A stretch of 64,000 nt of DNA, from positions 2,604,001-2,668,000 of the forward strand of contig NZ_BJOR01000001.1 of NCBI RefSeq assembly GCF_006540305.1, given 5' to 3'. The notes under the pieces are model-generated. The model ran no database searches, was not told where the DNA came from, and was given only the letters and a program-made list of their open reading frames with translations. This document shows positions 8,202 through 38,901 of this stretch, in pieces. The position numbers and the translations under genes were made by a program. This DNA comes from Streptomyces sp. 6-11-2 (lineage in GTDB: Bacteria; Actinomycetota; Actinomycetes; Streptomycetales; Streptomycetaceae). The first letter of the stretch is position 1. Each line of letters begins with the position of its first letter.

Positions 8202-8213
8202 CTACGCGCGTAG
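8202..8213. promoter_or_regulatory. Nucleoside-gene operator CTACGCGCGTAG upstream of PNP
   Basis: A perfect 12-bp palindrome CTACGCGCGTAG ends 25 bp before the PNP start and covers the position expected for a -35 box relative to the TACGCT at 8226-8231. One of six copies in the window, all at nucleoside genes; such a position fits repression. Confidence 0.75.
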
Positions 8214-8238
8214 GCGAATACCGGCTACGCTCATCCGC

Positions 8239-9063
8239 GTGAACGCATCTCTTCTTCCGGACGACATCCAGGGCGATCCGTACGCCGCCGCCGACGCCGC
8301 CGCCGCGCGCCTGCGCGAACTCACCGGTGCCGAGTCCCACGACGTCGCCCTCGTGATGGGGTCCGGCTGGGCACCGGCCGTCGACGCCCTGGGGGCCCCC
8401 GACGCCGAGTTCCAGGTCACCGAGCTGCCCGGATTCCCGCCGCCCGCGGTGGAGGGCCACGGCGGCAAGATCCGCTCGTACGCCATCGGGGACAGGCGCG
8501 CGCTGGTGTTCCTGGGCCGCACCCACTACTACGAGGGCCGGGGCGTGGCCGCCGTGGCCCACGGTGTGCGCACCGCCGTCTCGGCCGGCTGCAAGACGAT
8601 CGTGCTCACCAACGGCTGCGGCGGTCTGCGCGAGGGCATGCGCCCCGGCCAGCCGGTGCTGATCAGCGACCACCTCAACCTGACGGCGACCTCGCCGATC
8701 GTCGGCGCCAACTTCGTCGACCTCACCGACCTGTACTCGCCGCGCCTGCGCGCCCTGTGCAAGGAGGTCGACCCCACCCTCGAGGAGGGCGTCTACGCCC
8801 AGTTCCCCGGCCCGCACTACGAGACGCCGGCGGAGATCCGCATGGCCCGCACCATCGGCGCGGACCTGGTCGGCATGTCCACCGTCCTGGAGGCGATCGC
8901 CGCCCGCGAGGCGGGCGCGGAGGTCCTCGGCATCTCCCTGGTGACCAACCTCGCCGCGGGCATGACCGGCGAGCCCCTCAACCACGAGGAGGTCCTCCAG
9001 GCGGGCCGCGACAGCGCCACCCGCATGGGATCCCTGCTCACCCAGGTGCTGGGCCGCCTGTAG
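8239..9063 (+). CDS. Purine nucleoside phosphorylase
   Basis: The 274-residue enzyme starts at GTG 8239 ([20 protein letters not shown]). It has the trimeric PNP signatures: [13 protein letters not shown] (phosphate loop), [27 protein letters not shown] and [16 protein letters not shown], then VTNLAAG with the purine-contacting Asn. It splits purine (deoxy)ribonucleosides with phosphate into base and (deoxy)ribose-1-phosphate in the cytoplasm. A TACGCT -10 box ends 7 bp before the GTG, which suggests a leaderless transcript. A CTACGCGCGTAG operator overlaps the promoter. The mutase downstream could use its sugar-1-phosphate product. The in-frame start at 8188 would place the operator inside the gene and is rejected. 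Confidence 0.93.
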
Positions 9064-9092
9064 ACCCCGGCACACCGCGGCACGCCGAACGC

Positions 9093-9123
9093 CCGGCGGC
9101 ACCCGTGAAGGGGGAGCCGCCGG
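9093..9123 (+). terminator. Hairpin after purine nucleoside phosphorylase
   Basis: CCGGCGGC-A-CCC pairs with GGG-GGA-GCCGCCGG around a short GTGAA-containing loop, 29 bp after the PNP stop. The rest of the 284-bp gap to the mutase holds no other recognisable element. Confidence 0.6.
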
Positions 9124-9347
9124 ACCGCGGAAGGGGCCGTGGGGTGCGCCGGCGGCCCCTGCCGCGCACTTCGGCTCCGCCCGGCGCTCTCCGCCCGGCA
9201 CGGACCCGGAACTCCGGGCAGTACGCTCGCGCGCGGCGGCCGGAGGCGCCCCACGGCCCCGCCCCCAACGCATCCCAGGTGCCCCGGCACCCACCCGCCG
9301 GAGGCAGACGGCCCAGGCCGACAAACTCACGAGAGGCTGACCCCAAC

Positions 9348-11003: not shown

Positions 11004-11021
11004 CCCGTACGAAGACCGAAC

Positions 11022-11068
11022 CGGAACGGAACGGGTGCCCTCACTCGGAGGGCACCCGTTCCGTTCCG
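11022..11068. terminator. Perfect 21-bp hairpin between mutase and PH-domain gene
   Basis: CGGAACGGAACGGGTGCCCTC at 11022-11042 is followed by ACTCG and its exact reverse complement at 11048-11068. It lies between two convergent genes and should stop transcription from both sides. Confidence 0.9.
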
Positions 11069-11101
11069 AAGGTCACGCGATGTGACGCCGCCGCGCCCGC
11101 G

Positions 11102-11770: not shown

Positions 11771-11899
11771 GGCCCCGATTGTGCCCGACGTCCGTGGGTG
11801 CCCTCATCCGCGGTGCGGGAGCGCGGATGAGGGCACGGAGACCAGCACCCGGCGGAATATGGCCGGAGGCACAATCTGGACTCAAGGGGTGTACAGCCG

Positions 11900-11911
11900 C
11901 TACGCGCGTAG
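11900..11911. promoter_or_regulatory. Nucleoside-gene operator CTACGCGCGTAG upstream of deoC
   Basis: A perfect CTACGCGCGTAG ends one base before a TATGCT -10 box (11913-11918). It therefore lies between -35 and -10 of the likely deoC promoter, where a bound protein would block RNA polymerase. Confidence 0.78.
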
Positions 11912-11924
11912 ATATGCTCGCCTG

Positions 11925-12881
11925 GTGACCATGCCCACCACTGCACCCCCTCTCGCTGACGTCACCGCGTCCGACAGCACGCTGCGCCGCTTCCTGCACG
12001 GGCTGCCCGGCGTCGACGCGGTCGGCCTGGAGGCGCGCGCCGCCTCGCTCGGCACCCGTTCCATCAAGACCACCGCGAAGGCGTACGCGATCGACCTCGC
12101 CATCTCGATGGTCGACCTGACGACGCTGGAAGGCGCGGACACCCCGGGCAAGGTCCGGGCGCTCGGCGCCAAGGCGGTCCACCCCGACCCGACGGACCGT
12201 ACGGCCCCCGCCACGGCCGCGGTCTGCGTGTACCCCGACATGGTGGCCACCGCGAAGGAGGCCGTGGCCGGCTCGGCCGTGAAGGTCGCCTCGGTCGCCA
12301 CCGCCTTCCCGGCCGGCCGGGCGCCGCTGGACATCAAGCTGGCGGACGTGCGCGCGGCGGTCGCCGCGGGCGCCGACGAGATCGACATGGTCATCGACCG
12401 CGGGGCGTTCCTCGCCGGCAAGTACCTCAAGGTGTACGACGAGATCGCCGCCGTGAAGGAGGCCTGCGGTTCGAGCGCCCGCCTGAAGGTCATCTTCGAG
12501 ACCGGCGAGCTGTCGACGTACGACAACATCCGCCGCGCGAGCTGGCTCGGCATGCTGGCGGGCGCCGACTTCATCAAGACCTCCACCGGCAAGGTCGCCG
12601 TCAACGCCACCCCGGCCAACACGCTGCTCATGCTGGAGGCCGTCCGTGACTTCCGGGCGCAGACCGGCGTGCAGGTGGGCGTGAAGCCGGCCGGCGGCAT
12701 CCGCACCTCCAAGGACGCGATCAAGTTCCTGGTCCTGGTCAACGAGACCGCCGGCGGGGACTGGCTGGACAACCACTGGTTCCGCTTCGGCGCCTCCTCG
12801 CTCCTGAACGACCTGCTGATGCAGCGCCAGAAGCTGGCCACCGGCCGCTACTCCGGCCCCGACTACGTGACGGTGGACTGA
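11925..12881 (+). CDS. deoC: Deoxyribose-phosphate aldolase
   Basis: The enzyme is about 318 residues, with starts possible at GTG 11925 or ATG 11931. The TATGCT -10 box predicts transcription from about 11925, favouring a leaderless message at the GTG. Both key lysine motifs of class I DERA are present: ADFIKTSTGK with the Schiff-base lysine, and KPAGGIRT. It cleaves 2-deoxyribose-5-phosphate to glyceraldehyde-3-phosphate and acetaldehyde. A perfect nucleoside operator sits at 11900. Two aldehyde dehydrogenase genes follow with a 5-bp gap, well placed to oxidise the acetaldehyde formed. Confidence 0.95.
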   Translation: MTMPTTAPPLADVTASDSTLRRFLHGLPGVDAVGLEARAASLGTRSIKTTAKAYAIDLAISMVDLTTLEGADTPGKVRALGAKAVHPDPTDRTAPATAAVCVYPDMVATAKEAVAGSAVKVASVATAFPAGRAPLDIKLADVRAAVAAGADEIDMVIDRGAFLAGKYLKVYDEIAAVKEACGSSARLKVIFETGELSTYDNIRRASWLGMLAGADFIKTSTGKVAVNATPANTLLMLEAVRDFRAQTGVQVGVKPAGGIRTSKDAIKFLVLVNETAGGDWLDNHWFRFGASSLLNDLLMQRQKLATGRYSGPDYVTVD

Positions 12882-12886
12882 GCCCC

Positions 12887-15248: not shown

Positions 15249-15286
15249 GCCGCCCGGGGCGCCGCACCGCGGCGGCCTGCACAGAC

Positions 15287-15328: not shown

Positions 15329-15340
15329 CGCGTGCGCGCG

Positions 15341-16503: not shown

Positions 16504-16639
16504 CCGGCGTACGGCACAGGGGAGTACACACCTCGTACGCGCCTACGCGCCTTGTACGCGACCACGCGCGCCCCGTACGCCCCCGTCGTCGTACGTGCCT
16601 CGGAGCGCCTCTCTCGCGTCAAGGCGCCTGCGCACGCGA

Positions 16640-16680: not shown

Positions 16681-16685
16681 CCTTG

Positions 16686-16852: not shown

Positions 16853-17629
16853 TCAGGCGACGAGCTCGCCGAAGGACTCCTCACGGTCACGGCCGATGCT
16901 GAGGACCTCGTCCTCGCGCAGCCGGCGCAGGGACCGCCAGATGCTGGACTTCACCGTGCCGACGCTTATGCCGAGGATGTCCGCGATCTCCGGGTCCGTA
17001 CGGCCCTCGTAGTAACGCAGGACCAGCATGGTGCGCTGGAGTTCGGGCAGCCGGGCCAGCGCCTGCCACAGGACCGTGCGCAGCTCGGTGCCGCGCATGG
17101 CGTCCGTGTCGCCGGGCGTCTCCGGCAGTTCCTCGGTCGGGTACTCGTTGAGCTTGCGGCGCCGCCAGGCGCTGATGTGCAGGTTGGTCATGGTGCGGCG
17201 GAGGTATCCGCCGACGGCCGCCTTGTCACTGATCCGGTCCCACGCCCGGTAGGTCGAGAACAGCGCGCTCTGCAGCAGGTCCTCGGCCTCGAAGCGGTCG
17301 CCGGTGAGGTGGTAGGCGGTTGCGTACAGGGAGGCGCGGCGCTCCTGGACGTAGGCGGTGAACGCCGCTTCGGCGTCCACGGTCTCCGACAGTGCGCGGC
17401 GCTCCCCCGGACCCTCCCCGTACGCGGTTCCCCCGTGTGTTTCCCCCGTGTGAGCGTCAACCACCGTCATGCGGGGCTGAGGCCCCTGCTGCGCATGCGC
17501 GGTGTGCTGACGCCCGGTGCCGCGAGCGCACCCCCGCCCGCTCACGGCACCGGACTTCTCCGAAGACCGGGCCACGTCGTGCAGACGCGTGACCACTGCG
17601 CTGTGGCTGGTGCTGTGCAGTGTGTTCAT
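16853..17629 (-). CDS. sigQ: ECF RNA polymerase sigma factor SigQ (SigE-family type)
   Basis: The 258-residue protein (start MNTLHSTSHSAVVTRLHDV) has sigma-70 region 2 at about 90-160 (HLTGDRFEAEDLLQSALFSTYRAW) and region 4 at about 190-245 (LPELQRTMLVLRYYEGRTDPEIADILGISVGTVKS). An 85-residue, low-similarity N-terminal extension comes first; ATG 17470 inside it could be an alternative start. It is divergent from afsQ1-afsQ2, the order known from S. coelicolor, where sigQ is a target of AfsQ1 and works with it in antibiotic control under nitrogen-related stress. A matching AfsQ1 site is in the shared promoter region. Confidence 0.92.
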   Translation of the reverse strand: MNTLHSTSHSAVVTRLHDVARSSEKSGAVSGRGCARGTGRQHTAHAQQGPQPRMTVVDAHTGETHGGTAYGEGPGERRALSETVDAEAAFTAYVQERRASLYATAYHLTGDRFEAEDLLQSALFSTYRAWDRISDKAAVGGYLRRTMTNLHISAWRRRKLNEYPTEELPETPGDTDAMRGTELRTVLWQALARLPELQRTMLVLRYYEGRTDPEIADILGISVGTVKSSIWRSLRRLREDEVLSIGRDREESFGELVA

Positions 17630-17725
17630 TCGCGCCCCCCGTCGTGGAGTTCCGGTGTTCCGTCCTGCTTCTTGCCCCGTGCCGAAAATCTTGCCGTGGC
17701 CACTTCATGGCCATGTCCGCCGACT

Positions 17726-17741
17726 GTCACAGACCTGTCAC
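17726..17741. promoter_or_regulatory. AfsQ1 binding site GTCAC-n6-GTCAC in the sigQ-afsQ1 gap
   Basis: GTCACAGACCTGTCAC at 17726-17741 is two direct GTCAC half-sites separated by 6 bp and fits the published AfsQ1 consensus GTnAC-n6-GTnAC. It lies 81 bp before afsQ1 and 96 bp before sigQ. Confidence 0.85.
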
Positions 17742-17822
17742 AGGGGTACGGAGGCCGTTACCGGGCGCAGGTCGCCGTACGGGTGTCGAAACACCGACCC
17801 GGCATGGGCCAGAATGAGGTTC

Positions 17823-18500
17823 GTGCCTTCCCTGTTGCTGATCGAGGACGACGACGCCATCCGAACGGCCCTGGAGCTCTCACTGACGCGCCAGGGACAC
17901 CGGGTGGCCACCGCTGCCAGCGGTGAGGACGGTCTGAAGCTGTTGCGCGAGCAGCGGCCGGACCTGATCGTGCTGGACGTGATGCTGCCCGGCATCGACG
18001 GGTTCGAGGTGTGCCGGCGCATCCGGCGCACGGACCAGCTGCCGATCATTCTGCTCACCGCGCGCAGCGACGACATCGACGTGGTGGTCGGGCTGGAGTC
18101 CGGAGCCGACGACTACGTGGTCAAACCCGTGCAGGGGCGGGTGCTGGACGCCCGGATCCGGGCCGTGCTGCGGCGCGGCGAGCGGGAGGCGAACGACTCG
18201 GCGACCTTCGGCAGCCTCGTCATCGACCGGGCGGCGATGACCGTGACGAAGAACGGCGAGGACCTCCAGCTGACCCCGACCGAGCTGAGACTGCTGCTGG
18301 AGCTGAGCCGCCGGCCCGGGCAGGCGCTGTCCCGGCAGCAGCTGCTGCGGCTGGTGTGGGAGCACGACTACCTCGGTGACTCGCGGCTGGTGGACGCCTG
18401 TGTGCAGCGGCTGCGGGCCAAGGTGGAGGACGTGCCCTCGTCCCCGACGCTGATCCGTACCGTGCGCGGCGTCGGTTACCGCCTGGACGCGCCTCAGTGA
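17823..18500 (+). CDS. afsQ1: Two-component response regulator AfsQ1
   Basis: The 225-residue OmpR/PhoB-type protein starts at GTG 17823 (VPSLLLIEDDDAIRTALEL). Its receiver domain has the acidic pocket EDDD, phospho-acceptor Asp52 in LDVMLPG, and the conserved Thr and Lys in LLTARSDD and YVVKPV. The C-terminal winged helix has LTPTELRLLLELSRRPG and IRTVRGVGYRLD. AfsQ1 activates antibiotic genes and nitrogen-related genes in S. coelicolor. The stop overlaps the AfsQ2 GTG by 4 bp. In-frame extension upstream to 17517 enters the promoter and is rejected. Confidence 0.96.
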   Translation: MPSLLLIEDDDAIRTALELSLTRQGHRVATAASGEDGLKLLREQRPDLIVLDVMLPGIDGFEVCRRIRRTDQLPIILLTARSDDIDVVVGLESGADDYVVKPVQGRVLDARIRAVLRRGEREANDSATFGSLVIDRAAMTVTKNGEDLQLTPTELRLLLELSRRPGQALSRQQLLRLVWEHDYLGDSRLVDACVQRLRAKVEDVPSSPTLIRTVRGVGYRLDAPQ

Positions 18501-20122
18501 CGGACGAGCGGGGCGGGCTCCGGGGCTGGGCCTCGGAGCGCAGGGGAACGTTGTCCCGGCTGCGGTTCACCAGTCTGCGCCTGCGGCTGGTCGTGGTCTT
18601 CGCACTGGTGGCGCTGACCGCGGCCGTGTCGGCGTCCGGGATCGCGTACTGGCTCAACCGCGAGGCGGTGCTGACCCGCGCCCAGGACGCGGCGCTGCGC
18701 GACTTCCAGCAGGAAGTGCAGAACCGCGCGGGCGCGCTGCCGGTGCACACCACGCAGGACCAACTCCAGCACACCGCCGGGCAGATGGCCGGCAGCAGCC
18801 AGCGCTTCAGCGTGCTGCTGGTCGGCCAGGACGCGAACGGCAGGACGCTGTACGGCAACTCCGGCGGGCTGAACGGCTTCTCGCTGGAGGACGTGCCCGC
18901 CTCGCTGCGCACCGCGGTGAACAGGCAGCAGCCGCTCTCCTCGGCCAACAAGGCGCCCTACCACCTGTACTGGCAGCGGATCGTCATGCACGGGACGCCG
19001 TACCTGGTGGCCGGCACACGGGTGATCGGCGGCGGCCCGACCGGCTACATGCTCAAGTCGCTGGAGCCGGAGGCCAAGGACCTCAACTCGCTGGCCTGGT
19101 CCCTGGGCATCGCCACCGCGCTGGCGCTCGTCGGTGCCGCTCTCCTCGCCCAGGCCGCCGCCACGACGGTGCTGAAGCCGGTGCACCGGCTGGGAGTCGC
19201 CGCGCGCCGGCTCGGCGAGGGCAAGCTCGACACCCGGCTGCGGGTGTCCGGAACCGACGAACTCGCCGACATGTCCCGCACGTTCAACAAGGCGGCCGAG
19301 GCGCTGGAGAAACGGGTCGCCGACATGGCCGCCCGCGACGAGGCGTCCCGCCGGTTCGTCGCGGACATGAGCCACGAGCTGCGCACGCCGCTGACCGCCA
19401 TCACCGCCGTGACGGAGGTGCTGGAGGAGGAGCTGGACTCCGAGAGCGGCGGCATCGACCCGATGATCGAGCCGGCGGTCCGGCTCGTCGTCAGCGAGAC
19501 CCGGCGGCTGAACGACCTGGTCGAGAACCTGATGGAGGTCACCCGCTTCGACGCGGGCACGGCCCGGCTGGTGCTGGACGACGTCGACATCGCCGACCAG
19601 ATCACCGCCTGCATCGACGCCCGCGCCTGGCTGGACGCCGTGGAACTGGACGCCGAGCGCGGCATCCACGCCCGGCTCGACCCGCGCCGCCTGGACGTCA
19701 TCCTCGCCAACCTCATCGGCAACGCGCTCAAGCACGGCGGCTCGCCCGTGCGGGTGTCGGTGCGCGAGTCGGCCGCGGAGGCGGAGCGGCCGGCCGAGAT
19801 CGTCATCCAGGTGCGCGACCACGGGCCGGGCATCCCCGAGGACGTCCTGCCGCACGTCTTCGACCGCTTCTACAAGGCGAGCGCGTCCCGGCCGCGCTCC
19901 GAGGGCAGCGGCCTCGGGCTGTCCATCGCCCTGAACAACGCGCACATCCACGGCGGCGGCATCACCGCGGCCAACTCGCCCGAGGGCGGAGCGGTGTTCA
20001 CGCTGCGGCTGCCGCAGGACGCCTCCGCGCTCGCCGAGGAGCGGTCCGAGGGTGACCGATACGAGGAGGACAGCGCGAACGGCACGAACGGCGCGAACGG
20101 CGGGAAGGGGGCCGCCCGATGA
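18497..20122 (+). CDS. afsQ2: Two-component sensor histidine kinase AfsQ2
   Basis: The 541-residue membrane kinase has a first helix near residue 35 (LVVVFALVALTAAVSASGIA) and a second at about 200 (SLGIATALALVGAALLAQAA), enclosing an extracytoplasmic sensor loop. A HAMP linker follows, then an H-box DMSHELRTPLTAI with the histidine at about 292. The ATP domain has N-box NLIGNALKHG, DHGPGIP, and GSGLGLSIA. It phosphorylates AfsQ1. The gene overlaps afsQ1 by 4 bp and the lipoprotein gene by 4 bp, giving a three-gene coupled operon. Confidence 0.95.
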   Translation: MTDERGGLRGWASERRGTLSRLRFTSLRLRLVVVFALVALTAAVSASGIAYWLNREAVLTRAQDAALRDFQQEVQNRAGALPVHTTQDQLQHTAGQMAGSSQRFSVLLVGQDANGRTLYGNSGGLNGFSLEDVPASLRTAVNRQQPLSSANKAPYHLYWQRIVMHGTPYLVAGTRVIGGGPTGYMLKSLEPEAKDLNSLAWSLGIATALALVGAALLAQAAATTVLKPVHRLGVAARRLGEGKLDTRLRVSGTDELADMSRTFNKAAEALEKRVADMAARDEASRRFVADMSHELRTPLTAITAVTEVLEEELDSESGGIDPMIEPAVRLVVSETRRLNDLVENLMEVTRFDAGTARLVLDDVDIADQITACIDARAWLDAVELDAERGIHARLDPRRLDVILANLIGNALKHGGSPVRVSVRESAAEAERPAEIVIQVRDHGPGIPEDVLPHVFDRFYKASASRPRSEGSGLGLSIALNNAHIHGGGITAANSPEGGAVFTLRLPQDASALAEERSEGDRYEEDSANGTNGANGGKGAAR

Positions 20123-22850: not shown

Positions 22851-24014
22851 TCAGCCTTCCAAGGTCGAGAAACCCCTGGTGGACGCTGTCTGCTGAAACA
22901 GCCATTCGGATTTCAGCGCCGCGTATCCGGGCTTGATCACGTCATTGATCATCGCCAGTCGTTCATCGAAAGGAATGAATGCTGATTTCATCGCATTGAC
23001 GGAGAACCACTGCATGTCGTCGAGTGTGTATCCGAATGCCTCGACCAGCTGCTCGAACTCCCGGCTCATGCTGGTGTGGGACATAAGACGGTTGTCCGTG
23101 TTGACCGTGGCCCGGAAGTGGAGCCGGCGCAGCAGTCCGATCGGATGCTCGGCGTACGAGGGCGCCGCCCCGGTCTGGAGGTTGGAACTCGGGCACAGCT
23201 CCAGCGGGATGCGCTTGTCACGGACGTAGGAGGCCAGCCGCCCCAGTTCGACCGTGCCGTCCTCGTGGACCTGGATGTCGTCGATGATGCGCACCCCGTG
23301 ACCCAGCCGGTCCGCGCCGCACCACTGCAGCGCCTGCCAGATCGACGGCAGCCCGAAGGCCTCGCCGGCGTGGATCGTGAAGTGGTTGTTCTCCCGCTTC
23401 AGGTACTCGAAGGCGTCCAGGTGCCGGGTGGGCGGGTAACCGGCCTCCGCGCCCGCGATGTCGAAGCCCACCACGCCCGAGTCCCGGTAGCGGTTGGCGA
23501 GTTCGGCGATCTCCAGGGAGCGGGCCGCGTGCCGCATCGCGGTCAGCAGGACGCCCACCCGGATCCGGTGACCGTTCTCCAGGGCGGTCCGCTCGCCCTC
23601 GCGGAAGCCCTCGTTGACGGCCTCGACGACCTCCTCCAGGCTCAGCCCGCCCTCCAGGTGCTGCTCGGGGGCGTAGCGCACCTCGGCGTAGACGACGCCG
23701 TCCTCGGCGAGGTCCTCGGCGCACTCGCGGGCGACCCGGACGAGGGCATCGCGGGTCTGCATCACGGCGACGGTGTGCGCGAACGTCTCCAAGTACCGTT
23801 CCAGCGAGCCGGAGTCGGCGGCCTCACGGAACCACAGGCCCAGCTTGTCCGGGTCGGTCTCGGGGAGCGGGGAGTAGCCCGACGCGCGGGCCAGGTCGAC
23901 GACGGTTCCGGGGCGGAGCCCGCCGTCGAGGTGATCGTGGAGCAGAACCTTGGGCGCCCGGCGGATCTGGTCCGAGCTCGGGGTGTTCCCCTGGTGGGCA
24001 GTCTGGCTCGTCAT
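22851..24014 (-). CDS. add: Adenosine deaminase
   Basis: The 387-residue enzyme starts at ATG 24014. Zinc and catalytic motifs are all present: [11 protein letters not shown] (two metal His), TIHAGEAFG (His and catalytic Glu), GHGVRI, and [11 protein letters not shown] with the metal Asp. It deaminates adenosine and deoxyadenosine to inosine and deoxyinosine, the substrate for the PNP at 8239. A perfect CTACGCGCGTAG operator lies 16 bp upstream of the start. The gene seems monocistronic, with the small secreted protein downstream having its own promoter space. Confidence 0.95.
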
Positions 24015-24030: not shown

Positions 24031-24042
24031 CTACGCGCGTAG
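24031..24042. promoter_or_regulatory. Nucleoside-gene operator CTACGCGCGTAG upstream of adenosine deaminase
   Basis: A perfect 12-bp palindrome CTACGCGCGTAG lies 16 bp before the adenosine deaminase ATG, near the expected transcription start on the minus strand. The divergent hydrolase at 24128 is 85 bp away and may or may not share it. Confidence 0.78.
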
Positions 24043-30380: not shown

Positions 30381-30402
30381 ACCCGGAAGAGGAAAGTGCA
30401 GG

Positions 30403-31686
30403 TCAGGCGATACGTTCCAGCACCACCGGCGAGGCGGTGAAGTCCGTGCCGGGCGCCGCGATGTCGTACGAGCCCTCGACCGACTGGAGCGCGTACTCGA
30501 AGCGCTCGGGGGTGTCGGTGTGAAGGGTCAGCAGGGGCTGGCCCTCCGTCACCCGGTCGCCGGGCTTGGCGTGCAGCTCGACGCCCGCGGCCGCCTGGAC
30601 CGGGTCCTCCTTGCGGGCGCGGCCGGCGCCCAGGCGCCAGGCGGCGACGCCGATGCCGTAGGCGTCGAGGCGGGTCAGGACGCCCGAGGAGGGGGCCGTG
30701 ATCACGTGCTGTTCCCTGGAGGTGGGCAGGGGGGCGTCGGGGTCGCCGCCCTGGGCCGCGATCATGCGACGCCAGACGTCCATCGCGGAGCCGTCGGCCA
30801 GGGCCTTCGCCGGGTCGGCGTCCTTCAGGCCGGCCGCGTCCAGCATCTCGCGCGCCAGGGCCAGGGTCAGTTCGACCACGTCCGCGGGGCCGCCGCCGGC
30901 CAGGACCTCGACCGACTCGCGGACCTCCAGCGCGTTGCCCGCCGTCAGGCCGAGCGGGGTCGACATGTCGGTCAGGAGCGCGACCGTCCGCACGCCGTGG
31001 TCGGTACCCAGACCGACCATCGTGGAGGCCAGCTCACGAGCGTCGTCGAGCGTCTTCATGAAGGCGCCGGTGCCCACCTTCACGTCGAGGACCAGCGAGC
31101 CCGTGCCCTCGGCGATCTTCTTGGACATGATCGAGGAGGCGATCAGCGGGATCGCCTCGACCGTGCCGGTCACGTCGCGCAGGGCGTACAGCTTCTTGTC
31201 CGCGGGGGCCAGACCGTCGCCGGCCGCGCAGATCACCGCGCCGACGCCGTCCAGTACGGACAGCATCTCCTCGTTGGACAGCAGCGCCCGCCAGCCGGGG
31301 ATCGACTCCAGCTTGTCCAGCGTGCCGCCGGTGTGGCCGAGGCCGCGGCCCGACAGCTGCGGGACGGCCGCGCCGCAGGCCGCTACCAGCGGGGCCAGCG
31401 GCAGCGTGATCTTGTCACCGACGCCGCCCGTCGAGTGCTTGTCGGCGGTGGGGCGGGACAGGGAGGAGAAGTCCATGCGCTCGCCGGAGGCGATCATCGC
31501 CGCGGTCCAGCGGGCGATCTCCTCGCGGTTCATGCCGTTGAGGAGGATGGCCATCGCGAGCGCGGACATCTGCTCGTCGGCGACCTCCCCGCGGGTGTAC
31601 GCGTCGATCACCCAGTCGATCTGCTCGCCGCTGAGCTCGCCGCGGTCCCGCTTGGTGCGGATGACGGAGATGGCGTCCATGGCCAT
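30403..31686 (-). CDS. deoA: Thymidine (pyrimidine-nucleoside) phosphorylase
   Basis: A 427-residue enzyme from ATG 31686 (MAMDAISVIRTKRDRGELSG) behind GGAAGGAA. Signature motifs are DKHSTGGVGDK (phosphate), SGRGLGHTGGTLDKLESIPG, and the substrate region LYALRDVTGTVEAIPLIASS. It splits thymidine or other pyrimidine nucleosides to base and sugar-1-phosphate. It is the last gene of the ABC transporter-cytidine deaminase operon, which starts at the operator at 36165. The deoxyribose-1-phosphate product feeds the mutase and DeoC encoded at 9-13 kb. Confidence 0.94.
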   Translation of the reverse strand: MAMDAISVIRTKRDRGELSGEQIDWVIDAYTRGEVADEQMSALAMAILLNGMNREEIARWTAAMIASGERMDFSSLSRPTADKHSTGGVGDKITLPLAPLVAACGAAVPQLSGRGLGHTGGTLDKLESIPGWRALLSNEEMLSVLDGVGAVICAAGDGLAPADKKLYALRDVTGTVEAIPLIASSIMSKKIAEGTGSLVLDVKVGTGAFMKTLDDARELASTMVGLGTDHGVRTVALLTDMSTPLGLTAGNALEVRESVEVLAGGGPADVVELTLALAREMLDAAGLKDADPAKALADGSAMDVWRRMIAAQGGDPDAPLPTSREQHVITAPSSGVLTRLDAYGIGVAAWRLGAGRARKEDPVQAAAGVELHAKPGDRVTEGQPLLTLHTDTPERFEYALQSVEGSYDIAAPGTDFTASPVVLERIA

Positions 31687-31764
31687 GGGGTTCGGTTCCT
31701 TCCGGGGTGCGAAGGGGGCGGGCGGCCCGCCTGGCCCCAAGGGGCTCAGGGGGCCGCCCGGGTG

Positions 31765-32166
31765 TTACTTGGTGAGGTGGTCCGGCCCGAAGGCCTGCGG
31801 CAGCATCTCGGACAGCGGCAGGATCCCCGCCGGGGTCTCCAGGATCAGGTCCGGCCCGCCGAACTCGTACAGCAGCTGGCGGCAGCGCCCGCACGGGACG
31901 AGGATCTCGCCCCTGCCGTCCACGCACGTGAAGTGCGTCAGCCGGCCGCCCCCGGTGTTCGCGAGCTGCGAGACCAGTCCGCACTCGGCGCACAGGCCGA
32001 GTCCGTAGGAGGCGTTCTCGACGTTGCAGCCGGTGACGATCCGGCCGTCGTCGGCCAGGGCGGCGGCACCGACCGGGTAGTTCGAGTAGGGGACGTACGC
32101 ACGGGTCATCGCCGCGCGCGCCTCCTGCCGCAGCGTCTCCCAGTCGACCGTCGCGTCCGAGCTCAC
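31765..32166 (-). CDS. cdd: Cytidine deaminase
   Basis: A 133-residue enzyme from GTG 32166, overlapping the permease stop by 4 bp (GTGA). Zinc motifs are CAECG (with catalytic Glu) and PCGRCRQ; the nucleoside-binding GCNVENASYG precedes them. Three cysteines at the metal fit the small tetrameric type. It deaminates cytidine and deoxycytidine to uridine and deoxyuridine, which thymidine phosphorylase can then split. The overlap shows it is translated with the nucleoside transporter. Confidence 0.94.
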   Translation of the reverse strand: MSSDATVDWETLRQEARAAMTRAYVPYSNYPVGAAALADDGRIVTGCNVENASYGLGLCAECGLVSQLANTGGGRLTHFTCVDGRGEILVPCGRCRQLLYEFGGPDLILETPAGILPLSEMLPQAFGPDHLTK

Positions 32167-33425
32167 TTGCCCTGTCCCTTCCGGTACGGCTGACCGTCCG
32201 CCTTCGGCATCCGCAGGTGCTGTGCCGACAGCGACAGCACCAGCAGGGTGACGATGTACGGCGTGGCGGTCACGACCTGCTTGGGCACCTCGTGGGTGCC
32301 GAGGTACCAGGCGAACATCCCCGCCGAGACGACGGCGGTGATGACGGCGGGCACCAGCTTCTTCTTCCACACCAGGTATGCCGCGCCGAACACCAGCAGG
32401 ATCGCAAGCAGCAGGATCAGCGCGTGCACGTTGGTCGTGCCGCCGCGCAGGTTCAGGCTGTCGGTGTAGCCGAACAGGCCGGCGCCGAGGGCGAGGCCGC
32501 CCGGCATCCAGTTGCCGAAGATCATCGCGGCGAGACCGATGTATCCGCGGCCGGCGGTCTGGCCGTCGAGGTAGACGTTCGAGGCCACGATGGACAGGAA
32601 GGCGCCGCCCAGGCCGGCGAAGCCGCCGGAGATGATCACGGCGATGTACTTGTACTTGTAGACGTTGACGCCGAGCGACTCGGCGGCCACCGGGTTCTCG
32701 CCGCAGGAGCGCAGGCGCAGCCCGAAGGCGGTGCGCCACAGCACCCACCAGGACAGCGGCACGAGGGCGATCGCGATGACGGTCAGCGGCGACAGGTTGG
32801 TGATCAGACCGCCGAGCAGGCCGGCGATGTCGGAGACCAGGAACCAGTGCTTGGTGTTGAGTGTGTCCAGCCAGCCGGACAGGCCCGGTATGTCGAAGGT
32901 GCCGAGCGAGTCGATCGGCGGGGACTGCTTCGAGGAGCCCTGGGGGACGTGCTCGAAGGTGAACTTCGACAGGTAGCGGGTGGTGCCGAGGGCCAGGATG
33001 TTGATCGCCACACCGGAGACGATGTGGTTGACGTTGAAGGTCACCGTGGCGATGGCGTGCAGGACGGCGCCGAGCGCGCCGCCGATGATGCCGAAGACGA
33101 TGCCGACCCAGGGGCCCCACTGGTAGCCGGCCCAGGCGCCGAACCAGGTGCCGAGGATCATCATGCCCTCGAGGCCGATGTTGACGACGCCGGACCGCTC
33201 GGCCCACAGACCGCCGAGGCCGGCGAGGCCGATCGGGACGGCCAGGCGCAGCGCGGTGGACATCTGGCCGGTCGAGGTGATGCCGTGCGCGCCGGTGACG
33301 AGCCGGACGACCGAGGTCAGTACCAGCACGCCCGCGATGATCAGCAGGAGCACCGGAAGGGAGACACGGCGGCTGCCCTTGCCGGGCTGCTTGGCCTGGG
33401 GCTTGGCGATGGTCGCGGTGGACAT
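32163..33425 (-). CDS. Nucleoside ABC transporter permease, second subunit (NupC-like)
   Basis: A 420-residue permease from ATG 33425 (MSTATIAKPQAKQPGKGSRR). Hydrophobic helices are spread over the length; the region LRLAVPIGLAGLGGLWAERS followed by GVVNIGLEGMMILG is the conserved motif of the BMP-type (branched-chain/RbsC-like) permease family. A loop of 50 residues with low hydrophobicity (FEHVPQGSSKQSPPIDSL) is unusual but clean. The start overlaps the stop of the upstream permease by one base. It forms a channel with that permease and the ATPase for nucleoside import. Confidence 0.9.
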   Translation of the reverse strand: MSTATIAKPQAKQPGKGSRRVSLPVLLLIIAGVLVLTSVVRLVTGAHGITSTGQMSTALRLAVPIGLAGLGGLWAERSGVVNIGLEGMMILGTWFGAWAGYQWGPWVGIVFGIIGGALGAVLHAIATVTFNVNHIVSGVAINILALGTTRYLSKFTFEHVPQGSSKQSPPIDSLGTFDIPGLSGWLDTLNTKHWFLVSDIAGLLGGLITNLSPLTVIAIALVPLSWWVLWRTAFGLRLRSCGENPVAAESLGVNVYKYKYIAVIISGGFAGLGGAFLSIVASNVYLDGQTAGRGYIGLAAMIFGNWMPGGLALGAGLFGYTDSLNLRGGTTNVHALILLLAILLVFGAAYLVWKKKLVPAVITAVVSAGMFAWYLGTHEVPKQVVTATPYIVTLLVLSLSAQHLRMPKADGQPYRKGQGK

Positions 33426-34552
33426 CAGGCCGCCACCTCCTTCTTCTGGACGTTGTTCTGGGCGGCGGCCGCGGCGAGCTCGGCGCCGACCTGCTTCTGC
33501 TGGCGGCGCAGACCCCACTGGCGTACGGCCTCGTAGGAGATGACGACCGCGAAGACGATCAGGCCCTGCATGATGGTGGCGATCTCCTTCTCGTACGCCA
33601 CGGGGGTGGCGTAGTCGAGGGCGGGAGAGGCCTTGTCGAGGAAGGCGATCAGGAGGGCGGCGAAGGCGATGCCGATCGGGTTGTTGCGGCCGAGCAGGGC
33701 GATCGTGATGCCGGTGAAGCCGAGGCCGGTCGGGAAGCTCAGGCTGTAGGTGTGGGCGTCGCCGAGCAGCAGCGGCAGGCCGGACAGGCCCGCGACCGCG
33801 CCGGAGATCAGCATGGCGGTGAGCACCATCTTCTTGGCGTCCACACCGGAGGCCGCGGCGGCGCTCTCGGACTCGCCGGTGGCGCGCAGGTCGAAGCCGA
33901 AGCGGGTGCGGTTGAGCACGATCCAGTAGACGACGCCCATGGCGACGGCGAGGAAGACCAGGCCGTAGATCTGGCCGACGTCGGAGCCGAGGTCGATGCC
34001 CGAGACCCAGCCGGACTCCTTCATGGTGCCGGTCGTCATGTTGTTGCCGACCTGCACACCCCAGACGTCCTTCAGGGTGAGGTAGCCGATGAGGCTGGTG
34101 GCGATGGCGTTGAGCATGATCGTGGCGACGACTTCGCTCACGCCCCGGGTGACCTTCAGCATGCCCGCGACGCCGGCCCAGAGGGCGCCGGTGAGCATGC
34201 CGACGAGCAGCAGCGTCGGTATCTGGAGGAAGGACGGCAGCGCCAGGTGCGCGCCGACGACGGCGGTCATCATCGCGGCGAGCCGGTACTGGCCGTCGAC
34301 GCCGATGTTGAACAGGTTCATGCGGAAGCCGACCGCCACCGCGAGCGCCGCCAGGTAGTACATCGACGCCTGGTTGATGATCAGCACCTGGACGTCGGAG
34401 AACGACGCCTGCTCGAGCATCAGCGTGTACGGCTCGATCGGGCTCTTGCCCGAGGCGATCAGCACGACCGAGGTCAGCAGGATCGCCGCGACGAGCGCGA
34501 TGACCGGGCCGGCCACCGCGAGGAGCACCCGCTCCTTGTCGAACTTCTTCAT
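33425..34552 (-). CDS. Nucleoside ABC transporter permease, first subunit (NupB-like)
   Basis: A 375-residue permease starting MKKFDKERVLLAVAGPVIALVA. About ten membrane helices are visible; AVAVGFRMNLFNIGVDGQYRLAA is the family motif near the first third, and GFTGITIALLGRNNPIGIA resembles the EAA-like coupling loop. It overlaps the ATPase gene by 4 bp (ATGA). Order ATPase-permease-permease matches the Lactococcus NupABC and Streptococcus RnsBCD nucleoside importers. Confidence 0.92.
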   Translation of the reverse strand: MKKFDKERVLLAVAGPVIALVAAILLTSVVLIASGKSPIEPYTLMLEQASFSDVQVLIINQASMYYLAALAVAVGFRMNLFNIGVDGQYRLAAMMTAVVGAHLALPSFLQIPTLLLVGMLTGALWAGVAGMLKVTRGVSEVVATIMLNAIATSLIGYLTLKDVWGVQVGNNMTTGTMKESGWVSGIDLGSDVGQIYGLVFLAVAMGVVYWIVLNRTRFGFDLRATGESESAAAASGVDAKKMVLTAMLISGAVAGLSGLPLLLGDAHTYSLSFPTGLGFTGITIALLGRNNPIGIAFAALLIAFLDKASPALDYATPVAYEKEIATIMQGLIVFAVVISYEAVRQWGLRRQQKQVGAELAAAAAQNNVQKKEVAA

Positions 34553-36135
34553 CGGGCCTCGTCCTCCGGACCGGCGGTGGTTTCGGTGTGTTCCAGGTGG
34601 CCGGACGCGGCGCCCGTCATGGCCGAGCCCAGCTCCTCGGGGGTGATGGTGGCCGGGTCGGCGTCGGCGACCAGCCGGCCGTTGTAGATCACCCGCAGGG
34701 TGTCGGACAGACCGATCAGCTCATCCAGGTCGGCGGAGATCAGCAGTACGGCCAGACCCTCGCGGCGGGCGTCCCGGATGTGGTCCCAGATCGCGGCCTG
34801 CGCGCCGACGTCCACACCGCGGGTGGGGTGGGCGGCGATGAGGAACTTGGGGCTGTGGCTCATCTCACGGCCGACGATCAGCTTCTGCTGGTTGCCGCCG
34901 GACAGGGAGGCGGCGGTGACGTCGATGCCGGGGGTGCGGACGTCGTACTCCTCGACGATCCGTCGGGTGTCCTCCTGGGCGCCCTTGGGGTCGAGCCAGA
35001 AGCCCTTGGCGTTGGGGCGCTCGGTGACGTGGCCGAGGATGCGGTTCTCCCACAGCGGGGCCTCCAGCAGGAGCCCGTGCCGGTGGCGGTCCTCGGGGAT
35101 GTAGCCGACGCCGGACTCCCGGCGCCTGCGGGTGGGCCAGGAGGTGACGTCCTCGCCGAGGAGGGCGATCGTGCCCGTGTCGGCCTGCTTGAGGCCGATG
35201 AGGGCTTCGATGAGCTCGCTCTGGCCGTTGCCCTCGACGCCCGCGAGGCCGAGGACCTCGCCGGCGTGGATGGTGAAGCTGATGTCGTCGAGGACGGCCC
35301 GGCCGCCCTCGGCCTCCAGCCGCAGCTTGTCGACGGTGAGGACGGGGCGGTCGGTGACCGTGGACTCGGCGGTCTCCGGAGTGGGCAGTTCGCTGCCGAC
35401 CATCATCTCGGCGAGCTGGCGCGAGGTGATCTCGGCGGGGACGGCCGTGCCCACGGTGGTGCCGCGGCGGATGACGGTGATGTCGTCCGCGACCGACAGG
35501 ACCTCGCCCAGCTTGTGGGAGATGAAGATGACGGACAGGCCCTCGGCCTTCAGCTCGCGCAGGTTGTCGAAGAGCGCGTCGACCTCCTGCGGGACGAGCA
35601 CGGCGGTCGGCTCGTCGAGGATGAGGGTGCGGGCGCCGCGGTAGAGGACCTTGAGGATCTCCACGCGCTGGCGGTCGGCGACACCGAGGTTCTCGACCAG
35701 GGCGTCCGGGCGGACGCCGAGGCCGTAGCGGTCGGAGATCTCCTTGATCCTCCTGCGGGCGCCGCCGCCGATGCCGTACAGCTTCTCGCTGCCGAGGACG
35801 ACGTTCTCGAGCACGGTCAGGTTGTCGGCCAGCATGAAGTGCTGGTGGACCATGCCGATGCCGCGGGCGATGGCGTCGGCGGGGCTGCCGAAGCTCACCT
35901 GCTCGCCGTCGACCGCGATGGTGCCCTCGTCCGGCTTCTGCATGCCGTAGAGGATCTTCATCAGGGTGGACTTGCCGGCACCGTTCTCGCCGACGAGGGC
36001 GTGTACGGTTCCCTTACGGACCGTCAGGTGGATGTCGTGGTTGGCCACGACTCCGGGGAACCGTTTGGTGATGCCCGCGAGCTCTACCGCGATGGTCGGC
36101 TGGGCGGTGAGCGGAGGGCTGCTGGACGCGTCGAT
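34549..36135 (-). CDS. Nucleoside ABC transporter ATPase, tandem domains (NupA-like); likely ATC start
   Basis: The protein has two nucleotide-binding domains: Walker A GENGAGKST with LSVIFISHKLGE, then a second with VEGNGQSE and signature LSGGNQQKL, as in RbsA-type ATPases. The first ATG/GTG/TTG/CTG in frame is GTG 36048, but starting there would delete strand 1 and the aromatic A-loop residue of ITKRFPGVVANHDI. The frame is open from a stop at 36187-36189 and has no standard start before 36048. An AAGGAG at 36143-36148 is spaced 7 bp from ATC 36133-36135, giving IDASSSPPLTAQPTIAVELA, so ATC is the likely start (528 aa). A CTACGCGCGTAG operator lies 29 bp further up. Confidence 0.88.
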   Translation of the reverse strand: MDASSSPPLTAQPTIAVELAGITKRFPGVVANHDIHLTVRKGTVHALVGENGAGKSTLMKILYGMQKPDEGTIAVDGEQVSFGSPADAIARGIGMVHQHFMLADNLTVLENVVLGSEKLYGIGGGARRRIKEISDRYGLGVRPDALVENLGVADRQRVEILKVLYRGARTLILDEPTAVLVPQEVDALFDNLRELKAEGLSVIFISHKLGEVLSVADDITVIRRGTTVGTAVPAEITSRQLAEMMVGSELPTPETAESTVTDRPVLTVDKLRLEAEGGRAVLDDISFTIHAGEVLGLAGVEGNGQSELIEALIGLKQADTGTIALLGEDVTSWPTRRRRESGVGYIPEDRHRHGLLLEAPLWENRILGHVTERPNAKGFWLDPKGAQEDTRRIVEEYDVRTPGIDVTAASLSGGNQQKLIVGREMSHSPKFLIAAHPTRGVDVGAQAAIWDHIRDARREGLAVLLISADLDELIGLSDTLRVIYNGRLVADADPATITPEELGSAMTGAASGHLEHTETTAGPEDEAR

Positions 36136-36164
36136 GGCGACTCTCCTTGGGGAAAGGGGCCGCT

Positions 36165-36176
36165 CTACGCGCGTAG
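36165..36176. promoter_or_regulatory. Nucleoside-gene operator CTACGCGCGTAG before the ABC transporter operon
   Basis: A perfect CTACGCGCGTAG lies between a TATTTAAA -10-like box (about 36185-36193, minus strand) and the AAGGAG ribosome site. Position just downstream of the likely promoter fits a repressor roadblock controlling ATPase, permeases, cdd and deoA together. Confidence 0.8.
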
Positions 36177-36252
36177 CGCCCCTGCTTTAAATAGTGCCCG
36201 GACCTGATCGACCTTGATTTGTCCTCGATCCGTTCCGAGCATTCTGCCGCGT

Positions 36253-36292
36253 GAACGGGGTGGGAGTCGCTGTGCGCTTCCACACCCCGTTC
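36253..36292 (-). terminator. Hairpin after the first BMP lipoprotein gene
   Basis: GAACGGGGTG at 36253-36262 pairs with CACCCCGTTC at 36283-36292, with a second inner GGGAG/CTTCC partial pairing. It separates the lipoprotein gene from the transporter operon, which thus has its own promoter. Confidence 0.7.
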
Positions 36293-36359
36293 CGCCGCCG
36301 TGACACTGCCGCCGCAGCGTCGTTCAGGCCATCCCTAAGACAGGCCCGCAACCGTTCGG

Positions 36360-37409
36360 TCAGGAGTCCTTGACCGTGATCGAGCCGCTCTTGATGCCTT
36401 CCTCGGCCTTCTTGATCGCGGCCTGGAGGGCGGCGTTGTCCTTGAAGACGGGGTTGGAGTCGGAGAGGCTCACACCGCCGGTCGCCAGGCTGGCGCGGAC
36501 CTCGCCGGTCTGGGGCTTGCCGTCCTTGACCGACTTGGCCAGGTTGAAGACGGCACCGGAGACGTCCTTCATGGCCGAGGTGAGGATCGAGTCCTTGTAC
36601 TTGGCCAGCGCGTCCTGCTTGTACTGGTCGGAGTCGACGCCGATCGCCCAGATCTTGTGCTCGGAGGCGGCCTTGATCACACCCTGGCCGGACAGGCCCG
36701 CGGCGGCGTAGACGACGTCGGCACCGGCGTCGATCTGGCCGTTGGCGGCGTTCTCACCCTTGTCCGGGCTGGAGAAACCGCCCTCCGCGGCCGTCTGGGT
36801 CAGGTACTGCGACTTGACCGTGACGCCCTTCTTGGTGTCCGCGACGCCCTGCTTGAAGCCCGCCTCGAACTTGTGGATCAGCGGAACGTCCACGCCGCCG
36901 ATGAAGCCGACGGTGTTCGTCTTGGTCGTCTTGGCGGCGGCGACACCGGCCAGGTAGGAGGCCTGCTCCTCGTGGAAGACCAGGTCCGTGACGTTGCTCG
37001 CCTTGATCTGGTTGTCGTCGACGATGCCGAAGGTGGTCTTCGGGAACTTGGCGGCGGCCGCCTTGACGGCCGGCGCGTAGGCGAAGCCGACGCCGATCAC
37101 CGGGTTGTAGCCCTGCTTGGCGAGAGTCTCCAGGCGCTGTACCTTGTCCGCGTCCGACTCGCCGTCCTGCGGCTCGACGGCCGTGCTCTTGTAGCCGAAC
37201 TCCTGGTCGGCCTGGTCCAGGCCGGCCGTGGCGGCGTCGTTGAAGGACTGGTCGCCCTTGCCGCCGACGTCGTAGGCGAGGGCGAGGCCCAGGTTCTTGT
37301 CGCCGCCACCGGCCGACGTGCTGGACGAACTGCTGCCACATGCGGAAACAGTGACGGCGAGAGCTGCGGTTGCGACACTTGCAACCGCTATACGGGACAC
37401 CCGGCGCAT
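36360..37409 (-). CDS. BMP-family nucleoside-binding lipoprotein 1
   Basis: A 349-residue protein from ATG 37409 (MRRVSRIAVASVATAALAVT), 9 bp after AAGGAG. The lipobox VSAC puts the lipid Cys at about 24. The mature domain is of the PnrA/BmpA purine-nucleoside-binding type: LALAYDVGGKGDQSFNDAA, VGFIGGVDVPLIHKFEAGF and HKIWAIGVDSDQY. It delivers nucleosides to the ABC permeases encoded just downstream. It has its own operator variant at 37465 and a terminator, so it is a separate transcription unit. In-frame starts up to 37574 lie before the promoter region and are rejected. Confidence 0.92.
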   Translation of the reverse strand: MRRVSRIAVASVATAALAVTVSACGSSSSSTSAGGGDKNLGLALAYDVGGKGDQSFNDAATAGLDQADQEFGYKSTAVEPQDGESDADKVQRLETLAKQGYNPVIGVGFAYAPAVKAAAAKFPKTTFGIVDDNQIKASNVTDLVFHEEQASYLAGVAAAKTTKTNTVGFIGGVDVPLIHKFEAGFKQGVADTKKGVTVKSQYLTQTAAEGGFSSPDKGENAANGQIDAGADVVYAAAGLSGQGVIKAASEHKIWAIGVDSDQYKQDALAKYKDSILTSAMKDVSGAVFNLAKSVKDGKPQTGEVRASLATGGVSLSDSNPVFKDNAALQAAIKKAEEGIKSGSITVKDS

Positions 37410-37464
37410 GGAACGAGACTCCTTCGTGCAAGCGCCCATACCAGGCGCTGGTTCCGCCGCAGCG

Positions 37465-37476
37465 TAACGCGCGTAG
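37465..37476. promoter_or_regulatory. Nucleoside-gene operator variant before BMP lipoprotein 1
   Basis: TAACGCGCGTAG (CTACGCGCGTTA on the gene strand) differs from the perfect palindrome at two positions, both in one half-site. It lies 56 bp upstream of the ATG. The same variant recurs before the second BMP gene. Confidence 0.72.
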
Positions 37477-37647
37477 ACATGGCGGAAAACCCCTCCTTGC
37501 CAGAGTGTTATCCGACCGTTTTGATCCTTCGGTGCCGCTCTGGCCCTGCGCGGGTGTCCGCCGGAGACGCCCACCGGCCCGTGGCAAGGCAGGTCGAGGT
37601 CCCGCCGTCGCGGCCGGCCCGCCCGGCGCTCGCGGACACCGTGACGC

Positions 37648-37684
37648 GGATAGGCCCCGGACCTGTACGGTCCGGGGCCTATCC
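37648..37684. terminator. 16-bp hairpin after BMP lipoprotein 2
   Basis: GGATAGGCCCCGGACC at 37648-37663 pairs with GGTCCGGGGCCTATCC at 37669-37684 across a 5-base loop. It ends transcription of the 37712 gene before the next BMP promoter. Confidence 0.88.
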
Positions 37685-37711
37685 ATCAGCGCTTCGGGCC
37701 TGGCGGCGCGG

Positions 37712-38806
37712 TCACTCGGTGTTGACGGTGACCTTGCCGTCGATGATGTCCTGCTTGGCCTTGTCGACGGCGGCGACGACGTCCTTCATGGCCTTGTACT
37801 TCGGGTTGGAGTCGGCGAAGCCCACACCGCCCGACTTCAGGTCGCCGCGCACCTCGCCGGAGAGCGGCTTGCCGTCGACGACGGACTTGGTCAGCTCGTA
37901 GACCGCGCCGCCGACGTTCTTCAGGGCCGAGCCGAGGATCCAGTCCTTGTACTTGGACAGGGAGCTCTGCGCGTACTGGTCGGAGTCGACACCGATCGCC
38001 CACACCTTGTGCGCGGCGGCGGCCTTGATGACGCCCTGACCGGACAGGCCGGCCGCGTGGTAGATGACGTCGGCGCCGGCGTCGATCTGACCGTTGGCGG
38101 CGCTCTCACCCTTGTCGGGGCTGGAGAAACCGCCCTCCTGCGGGGTCTGCGTCAGGTACTGCTTCTCGATCTTGATCTTCGGGTTGACCGACTTGGCACC
38201 CTGGACGAACCCTGCCTCGAACTTGTGGATCAGCGGGATGTCCACACCGCCGATGAAGCCGACGTGGTTCTTCTTGGTGGTCTTGGCCGCCGCGACACCC
38301 GCCAGGTACGAGGCCTGCTCCTCGTGGAAGACCATGTCGGCGACGTTGTCGGCCTTGACGGTCTCGTCATCGATGATGCCGAAGGTCGTCTTCGGGAACT
38401 TGGCCGCGGCCTCCTTGACCGCCGGGCCGTACACGAAGCCGACCCCGATGATCGGGTTGTAGCCGGCCTTGGCGAGCTGTTCGAGGCGCTGCACCTTGTC
38501 CGCGTCGGACTCGTTGTCGTTCGGATCGACGTCCCGGCCGCCGATCTTGAACTCGCTCTCGGCCTTCTGGAAACCGGAGAACGCGGCGTCGTTGAAGGAC
38601 TGGTCGCCCTTGCCGCCGATGTCGTACGCCAGACCGATGCCCTTGCCCGAGTACGTGCCGGAGCCGCCGGTCGAGCTGCTGTCGGCCTTGTCGGAGCCGC
38701 CGGCCGAATCGCTGCTGGACTTGCCGCACCCGGCGGCCGCGAGCGCGATGACCGCTACGGTCACCGCGGCTTGGGAGAATCTCGACCTCGATGAGTTCAG
38801 ACGCAC
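37712..38806 (-). CDS. BMP-family nucleoside-binding lipoprotein 2
   Basis: A 364-residue paralogue of the previous gene, read from GTG 38806 (VRLNSSRSRFSQAAVTVAVI) with lipobox LAAAGC at about residue 27 and a Ser/Gly linker. It shares GVIKAAAAHKVWAIGVDSDQ, VGFIGGVDIPLIHKFEAGF and LAYDIGGKGDQSFNDAAF. The two proteins clearly arose by duplication and may differ in nucleoside preference. This copy has its own operator variant at 38890 and its own terminator. No second set of permease genes is present, so both probably feed the single ABC transporter. Confidence 0.92.
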   Translation of the reverse strand: MRLNSSRSRFSQAAVTVAVIALAAAGCGKSSSDSAGGSDKADSSSTGGSGTYSGKGIGLAYDIGGKGDQSFNDAAFSGFQKAESEFKIGGRDVDPNDNESDADKVQRLEQLAKAGYNPIIGVGFVYGPAVKEAAAKFPKTTFGIIDDETVKADNVADMVFHEEQASYLAGVAAAKTTKKNHVGFIGGVDIPLIHKFEAGFVQGAKSVNPKIKIEKQYLTQTPQEGGFSSPDKGESAANGQIDAGADVIYHAAGLSGQGVIKAAAAHKVWAIGVDSDQYAQSSLSKYKDWILGSALKNVGGAVYELTKSVVDGKPLSGEVRGDLKSGGVGFADSNPKYKAMKDVVAAVDKAKQDIIDGKVTVNTE

Positions 38807-38889
38807 AGCAAGCACCCCTTCTTGCCCACGGCACCGTCGCCGGCCCGTTTTGCCCATGTGCCGCCTCTGGTGGCGATTCCGGCGCACAG

Positions 38890-38901
38890 TAACGCGCGTA
38901 G
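38890..38901. promoter_or_regulatory. Nucleoside-gene operator variant before BMP lipoprotein 2
   Basis: TAACGCGCGTAG at 38890-38901 is the same two-mismatch version seen before BMP lipoprotein 1, 84 bp upstream of the GTG at 38806. Confidence 0.72.

Follow-up and report, generated by a model that had tools for sequence, protein, structure and literature searches.

Do the genes for nucleoside uptake and salvage that lie in a 64,000-nucleotide stretch of the genome of Streptomyces sp. 6-11-2 (8,725,642 bases; the whole stretch is called the window below) answer to a single regulator, and how far would the reach of such a regulator extend? A preliminary description of the window had noted a short palindrome, CTACGCGCGTAG, and a variant of it, TAACGCGCGTAG, at six promoters of such genes, and had proposed that one repressor controls them. 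We found that one conserved operator indeed precedes the nucleoside import, deaminase, phosphorylase and deoC genes. It is probable (roughly 0.78) that these sites are the operators of one repressor of a Streptomycetaceae-wide nucleic-acid scavenging regulon, which also takes in a nucleobase permease and the purSQL operon of de novo purine synthesis.

The operator is an even palindrome of 12 constant bases with a central CG, and all six sites were recovered where they had originally been placed, four as exact copies and two in the one-sided form TAACGCGCGTAG. The first exact copy (8202..8213) covers the -35 region of the gene for a purine-nucleoside phosphorylase (PNP; 8239..9063, plus strand; TIGR01698 above cut-off), which has a probably leaderless GTG start at 8239 and a -10 element, TACGCT, at 8226-8231; promoter elements throughout the window were read by eye. 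The second (11900..11911) occupies the spacer between the -35 (TGTACA) and -10 (TATGCT) elements of deoC, which encodes a deoxyribose-phosphate aldolase (11925..12881, plus strand; TIGR00126 above cut-off) starting at GTG 11925 or ATG 11931. At the adenosine deaminase gene add (22851..24014, minus strand; NF006847 above cut-off, PF00962) the operator (24031..24042) directly abuts the 5' side of a -10-like TAAAGT just upstream of the ATG. The fourth copy (36165..36176) stands 3' of a -10-like TATTTA and 5' of the Shine-Dalgarno sequence of a minus-strand operon for the ATPase of a nucleoside-type ABC transporter (34549..36135; PF00005), two permeases (32163..34552, open reading frames 33425-34552 and 32163-33518; PF02653), cytidine deaminase (cdd, 31765..32160; NF004064 above cut-off) and thymidine phosphorylase (deoA, 30403..31740; NF004490 above cut-off). 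The one-sided copies, at 37465..37476 and 38890..38901, precede the genes of two BMP/PnrA-type substrate-binding lipoproteins on the same strand (36360..37409 and 37712..38887, both PF02608), the true start of the second probably lying inside its open reading frame. The operator is usually preceded by a T at PNP, add, BMP and the ribonuclease gene discussed below, not at deoC or the ABC operon. The geometry bears out the earlier statements that the sites overlap the -35/-10 region at PNP and deoC and that the transporter site lies between promoter and ribosome site; judged from the DNA, sites that cover the -35, lie within the spacer or coincide with the transcript start fit a predicted repressor.

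The exact palindrome occurs 4 times in the genome, and all 4 copies fall in the window, within 28 kb of each other, against about 0.007 expected per window and 0.95 per genome from base composition. Likewise, both copies of TAACGCGCGTAG in the whole genome are at BMP lipoprotein genes. The earlier statement that no other copies were noticed in the 64 kb holds for the exact word, though two unlisted two-mismatch matches are present at 16543 and 53964. The signal is carried by these exact copies together with gene function, placement and conservation.

With regard to conservation, exact CTACGCGCGTAG is present in all 61 sampled Streptomyces genomes, with 2-6 copies each as against 0-3 of a reversed-letter control. 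In the class as a whole it was found in 16 of 148 genomes, namely in all 11 Streptomyces and in 5 of the other 137, in which the copies look accidental. To this we add 80 Streptomyces and Kitasatospora loci retrieved by similarity to a DeoR-family gene close to PNP, a sample independent of the operator. The exact word lies 5' of PNP in 80/80 of them, no more than 120 bases from the start in 78 and behind a longer leader in 2, and among the 56 loci that extend to deoC the word in its promoter is exact in 55 and carries one mismatch in 1. Conservation at orthologous promoters, which the preliminary description had named as a test, is thus what these loci display. Other genera of the family contributed 16 further loci, which show the same pattern in a looser form: 14 reach PNP (10 exact, 3 with one mismatch, 1 with two) and 12 reach deoC (6 exact, 6 with one mismatch). 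A further 38 Streptomyces loci, one per genome and with the window locus excluded, were retrieved by the exact site itself, and 31 of these sites are at PNP (15), the ABC operon (9) or add (7). The remaining seven comprise a PNP site (L095) and a site in the gap between BMP and ABC genes (L101), both on cut contigs, one at purSQL (L169), two at a HAD-phosphatase gene (L104 and L165) and two in coding sequence (L102, L107). In the 9 ABC loci, which owe their retrieval to the exact word, the operator at the ABC promoter is exact, and the operator of BMP lipoprotein 1 has the one-sided TAAC form in 9/9. The operator, the gene set, the promoter geometry as read by eye and the conservation are what the analysis shows. 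Separately, a conserved block, GGAAACGACAAGACAACGATC, was noticed 5' of the PNP operator; as a second operator it was rejected, being absent from both other-genus rows of a five-row alignment.

The regulon is not confined to the window: elsewhere in the genome, conserved sites were recovered at secreted nucleases, other nucleotide genes and purSQL. A search of the same genome with the core pattern ACGCGCGTAG yielded 27 distinct sites (31 rows, four palindromes being listed twice), and 13 of these, including the six in the window, are 5' of nucleic-acid or nucleotide genes. Those outside the window belong to genes for two secreted 5'-nucleotidases (L111, L155) and one secreted ribonuclease (L132; PF00545), to an ExeM-type nuclease gene that has two core sites (L125/L157), to one for an LTD/ExeM-type nuclease (L128) and to that of a secreted acid phosphatase (L158), which by function is the weakest member; in several cases the true gene start was placed by eye with the signal peptide as guide. 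A secreted GmrSD_C nuclease (L153) has its core site inside the signal-peptide codons and, like all in-gene sites, was left out of the 13. The reversed-letter control gave 14 sites, of which 8 are near gene starts (10 genes), none of them a nucleic-acid or nucleotide gene, the genes around the other 6 being unannotated; were 13 such sites spread randomly among the 41, the probability of all falling on the real pattern would be about 1e-3. At the single-mismatch level, 6 of 18 sites are at nucleic-acid or nucleotide genes: L111, L125 and L128 again, a further LTD/ExeM-type nuclease (L115), a xanthine/uracil permease (L123) and purS (L120). Several candidates were rejected as operators: the L121 site is inside a cyclic di-AMP riboswitch (L263 being its counterpart by gene homology), the sites in rpoB leaders are part of a generally conserved leader, those at L135, L102 and L153 encode part of a signal peptide, and that at L107 is within coding sequence.

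Comparable genes recur in other species. When all core sites of three further Streptomyces were retrieved and labelled by BLAST, a core site was present at the ribonuclease, the ExeM nuclease and BMP in 3/3 and at 5'-nucleotidase A in 2/3, and in genome G003 another nucleobase permease has a site (L250). Among 30 genomes, 26 carry the exact core at the ExeM nuclease locus; one of the four misses is a contig end, and the other three are loci whose alignment begins at residue 74-80, as does that of the two paralogues in the genome of Streptomyces sp. 6-11-2. Of 30 ribonuclease loci, the 24 closest (67-100% identity) carry 22 exact and 2 one-mismatch cores, and no core was seen in the six more distant ones (52-64%). 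For comparison, shuffled cores match exactly in 0.07-0.17% of cases. Since nearly all ribonuclease and ExeM nuclease sites have the form TGACGCGCGTAGA, the asymmetry is itself conserved. Two other genes were observed with such sites: a DUF4429/SHOCT gene has a core site 5' in all four Streptomyces examined (L152, L232, L266, L284), and a gene for a small cysteine-rich protein has CAACGCGCGTAG upstream in two species (L124 1533, L256 1501).

The operator also occurs at purSQL. In genome G118 an exact palindrome is 5' of purSQL (L169 1501-1512, 12/12), and at the same place in Streptomyces sp. 6-11-2 we found CTACTCGCGTAG (L120 1471-1482, 11/12), 14 bases 5' of a -10-like TAGTCT and adjoined by CTACGAG, in a promoter that is otherwise conserved. 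The purS promoters of these two genomes were the ones compared, and both have the operator. Because de novo purine synthesis also carries the operator, a nucleoside or sugar phosphate as the inducer becomes less certain. Of the originally proposed single repressor of a nucleoside regulon, the single operator is strongly supported, but its scope is wider than the window and its simple inducer has lost ground.

Certain observations weigh against a single scavenging repressor. Counts at one or two mismatches are not above controls: the window has 8 matches with at most two mismatches, as compared to a shuffle mean of 4.1, with 7 of 100 shuffles reaching 8, and the genome has 22 with at most one mismatch as compared to 30 for the reversed-letter control, so that loose matching alone proves nothing. 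Set against random positions, as the preliminary description had suggested, such loose counts do no better than controls, while the exact copies are all at nucleoside genes. Genome-wide, 14 of the 27 core sites are unexplained, doubtful or at unrelated genes, and the three further species have many at unrelated genes (e.g. a protease, a sulfatase and an oligopeptide permease). The annotated reversed-letter control belongs to the core pattern, the 6/18 at the single-mismatch level being a bare count. A purine-synthesis operon under the same operator suits a catabolic repressor poorly, and the predicted repressor and its binding to the operator rest on DNA sites.

From these data we infer that control is by repression and not by activation, that one protein exerts it and that this protein responds to a signal. 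In the scavenging regulon so predicted, the secreted ribonuclease, nucleases and 5'-nucleotidases would digest external nucleic acids, the BMP lipoproteins and the nucleoside ABC importer would take up the products, and adenosine and cytidine deaminases, PNP, thymidine phosphorylase and deoxyribose-phosphate aldolase would process them in the cell, with the nucleobase permease and purSQL placed under the same repressor. When it occupies the -35, the spacer or the transcript start, the repressor would block RNA polymerase, and it would leave the DNA upon a change in a nucleic-acid-derived signal. More tentatively, one Streptomycetaceae regulator might join de novo purine synthesis to the digestion of external nucleic acids and to the import and catabolism of nucleosides through a code of operator affinities. 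Under such a code perfect palindromes would mark the intracellular catabolic genes, and one-sided forms kept in orthologues, namely TAAC...GTAG at the BMP lipoproteins and TGAC...GTAGA at the secreted nucleases, would make scouting enzymes and binding proteins the first to be freed from repression.

Which protein reads the operator, and whether it represses at all, can be weighed from the same evidence. That a GC-rich word merely happens to cluster in the window might be argued from loose-match counts that do not exceed controls and from accidental-looking exact copies outside Streptomyces, but it is refuted by the conservation at orthologous promoters and the gene specificity, and we give it practically no credence. 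An activator or dual regulator bound at these sites is improbable: some activators can work from a position over the -35, but the deoC site in the -35/-10 spacer and the ABC site after the -10 are in positions usual for repression. As to the identity of a repressor, a protein of another kind than the two considered here has the best chance, at somewhat below even odds; a LacI-type protein is a possible but doubtful reader, and the DeoR-family neighbor of PNP is still less favored. The latter (4779..5738, minus strand; PF08220 and PF00455) is 2.5 kb from the PNP operator and was missed in the preliminary description, which reported no obvious matching regulator next to any site. On the model of E. 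coli DeoR, which is released by a sugar phosphate, it would be released by deoxyribose-5-phosphate, ribose-5-phosphate or a like sugar phosphate, a proposal that we consider rather unlikely despite several points in its favor. The gene is present in 61/61 genomes of the family and syntenic with PNP: PNP and the operator adjoin it in all 80 genus loci retrieved by it, and they do so in 14 of the 16 loci of other genera, the remaining two contigs ending early. Its product has the DeoR helix-turn-helix and sensor domains; over the first 58 residues 17 of 19 loci agree completely and the other 2 differ by one change, and the sole solved-structure match of the protein is the deoxyribose operon repressor of E. 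coli (7l6l, E 2.7e-8). Against this candidate, the word is missing from the gene's own conserved promoter, and the protein scores 75 on the curated DeoR model with a cut-off of 244. Further, the retrieved loci (L214-L222) of its nearest relatives in other families (58-69%) contain neither PNP nor the word, and four such loci checked by Pfam contain sugar-binding/sugar-transport, arabinofuranosidase or aldose-epimerase genes. We take SCO4920 to be its orthologue. A co-expression study places SCO4920 at the center of a module enriched in sigma factors (PMC3224704). Ahead of the DeoR-family gene of the window, the promoter region (5739-5880) is long and strongly conserved; it runs up to a GTG start that is probably leaderless, and it is free of the palindrome. 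SdrA, a DeoR-family regulator of S. avermitilis, is possibly an orthologue as well; by its title the SdrA study reportedly concerns development and antibiotic production, with no link to nucleoside genes apparent there.

The other proposal is a PurR-like repressor of purine supply, for which a LacI-type protein is one option and under which purine starvation would derepress purSQL and scavenging together; we regard it as a tentative alternative. A regulator of purine supply, unlike a purely catabolic repressor, would be expected at purSQL, where the exact palindrome of G118 and CTACTCGCGTAG indeed stand, and nucleobase permeases have further sites (L123; L250 in G003). However, the breakdown of pentoses and pyrimidines, rather than purine supply, is what deoC, deoA and cdd contribute to, the proposal rests on two purS promoters, and no LacI gene carrying the site was found. 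A survey indicates that most LacI-family sites are, like this operator, even palindromes with a central CG, as are those of AdeR, HpxR and UriR at nucleoside genes; but LacI-family sites measure 16-22 nt as against 12 constant bases here, and these three are local regulators (PMC4052901). In the genome of Streptomyces sp. 6-11-2 a search for autoregulation found no site with at most one mismatch 5' of a convincing repressor gene; two regulator genes, one of the MarR type (L117, close to CTACGTGCGTAG) and one of the TetR type (L113, close to CTACGCCCGTAG), are candidates by position. In 20 ABC-importer loci of other families no shared adjacent regulator-like gene was seen, unlabelled open reading frames not having been scanned with Pfam, nor was a palindrome common to these loci seen. 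A BldD-type site was set aside, the operator halves being spaced AC-N4-GT as against the BldD consensus AC-N5-GT. In two species the HAD-phosphatase gene with an exact palindrome 5' (L104 1501, L165 1501) adjoins a small XRE-type regulator gene (genomes G024 and G106). As the regulator this XRE gene is non-decisive, its relatives being numerous in Streptomyces (best 120 of 4178); it is absent from the stretches examined in the genome of Streptomyces sp. 6-11-2, which are a small part of that genome.

The predicted scavenging regulon can be set beside known systems. Like the CytR and DeoR nucleoside regulons of enterobacteria and vibrios, it would jointly repress nucleoside uptake, deaminases, phosphorylases and DeoC. 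It differs from them in its operator word, in the absence of a regulator of proven kinship, and in extending to a secreted ribonuclease, nucleases, 5'-nucleotidases and purSQL. Joint repression of synthesis and salvage is familiar from PurR. PurR of Bacillus (PMC8789054) and of E. coli (PMC4052901) places purine synthesis and uptake or salvage under one repressor, as is likewise predicted here; in contrast to PurR, nucleoside catabolism and secreted nucleases dominate the present gene set, and the operator differs. A literature search over titles and the beginnings of abstracts, with most subscription papers outside it, returned no description of this regulon or operator. Through its gene set, the predicted regulon would connect nucleoside use and purine supply with secreted nucleases, and purine supply also feeds the guanosine-based signals that steer antibiotic production (PMC6627660). 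The analysis predicts a not-yet-named master regulator in an intensely studied genus, for whose capture operator DNA would be the bait.

A few minor observations remain. Between deoC and add, the window encodes an ECF sigma factor and a two-component system (16853-20122), which resemble SigQ and AfsQ1/AfsQ2. Outside the family, many BMP upstream regions (L194-L212) have, as read by eye, a common ATAACGG- or GTAACAG-like element that is possibly the site of another regulator. Finally, the ABC ATPase gene has ATC at the start position behind the Shine-Dalgarno sequence in 11/11 genomes compared (the window, where it is the likely start at 36133-36135, and L083, L087, L098, L099, L100, L106, L108, L166, L173 and L271). 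No in-frame ATG, GTG or TTG exists in the window 5' of the conserved N-terminal motif, and in several other genomes a GTG farther downstream is a possible alternative start; this pattern suggests a conserved rare start codon, ATC, in this gene.

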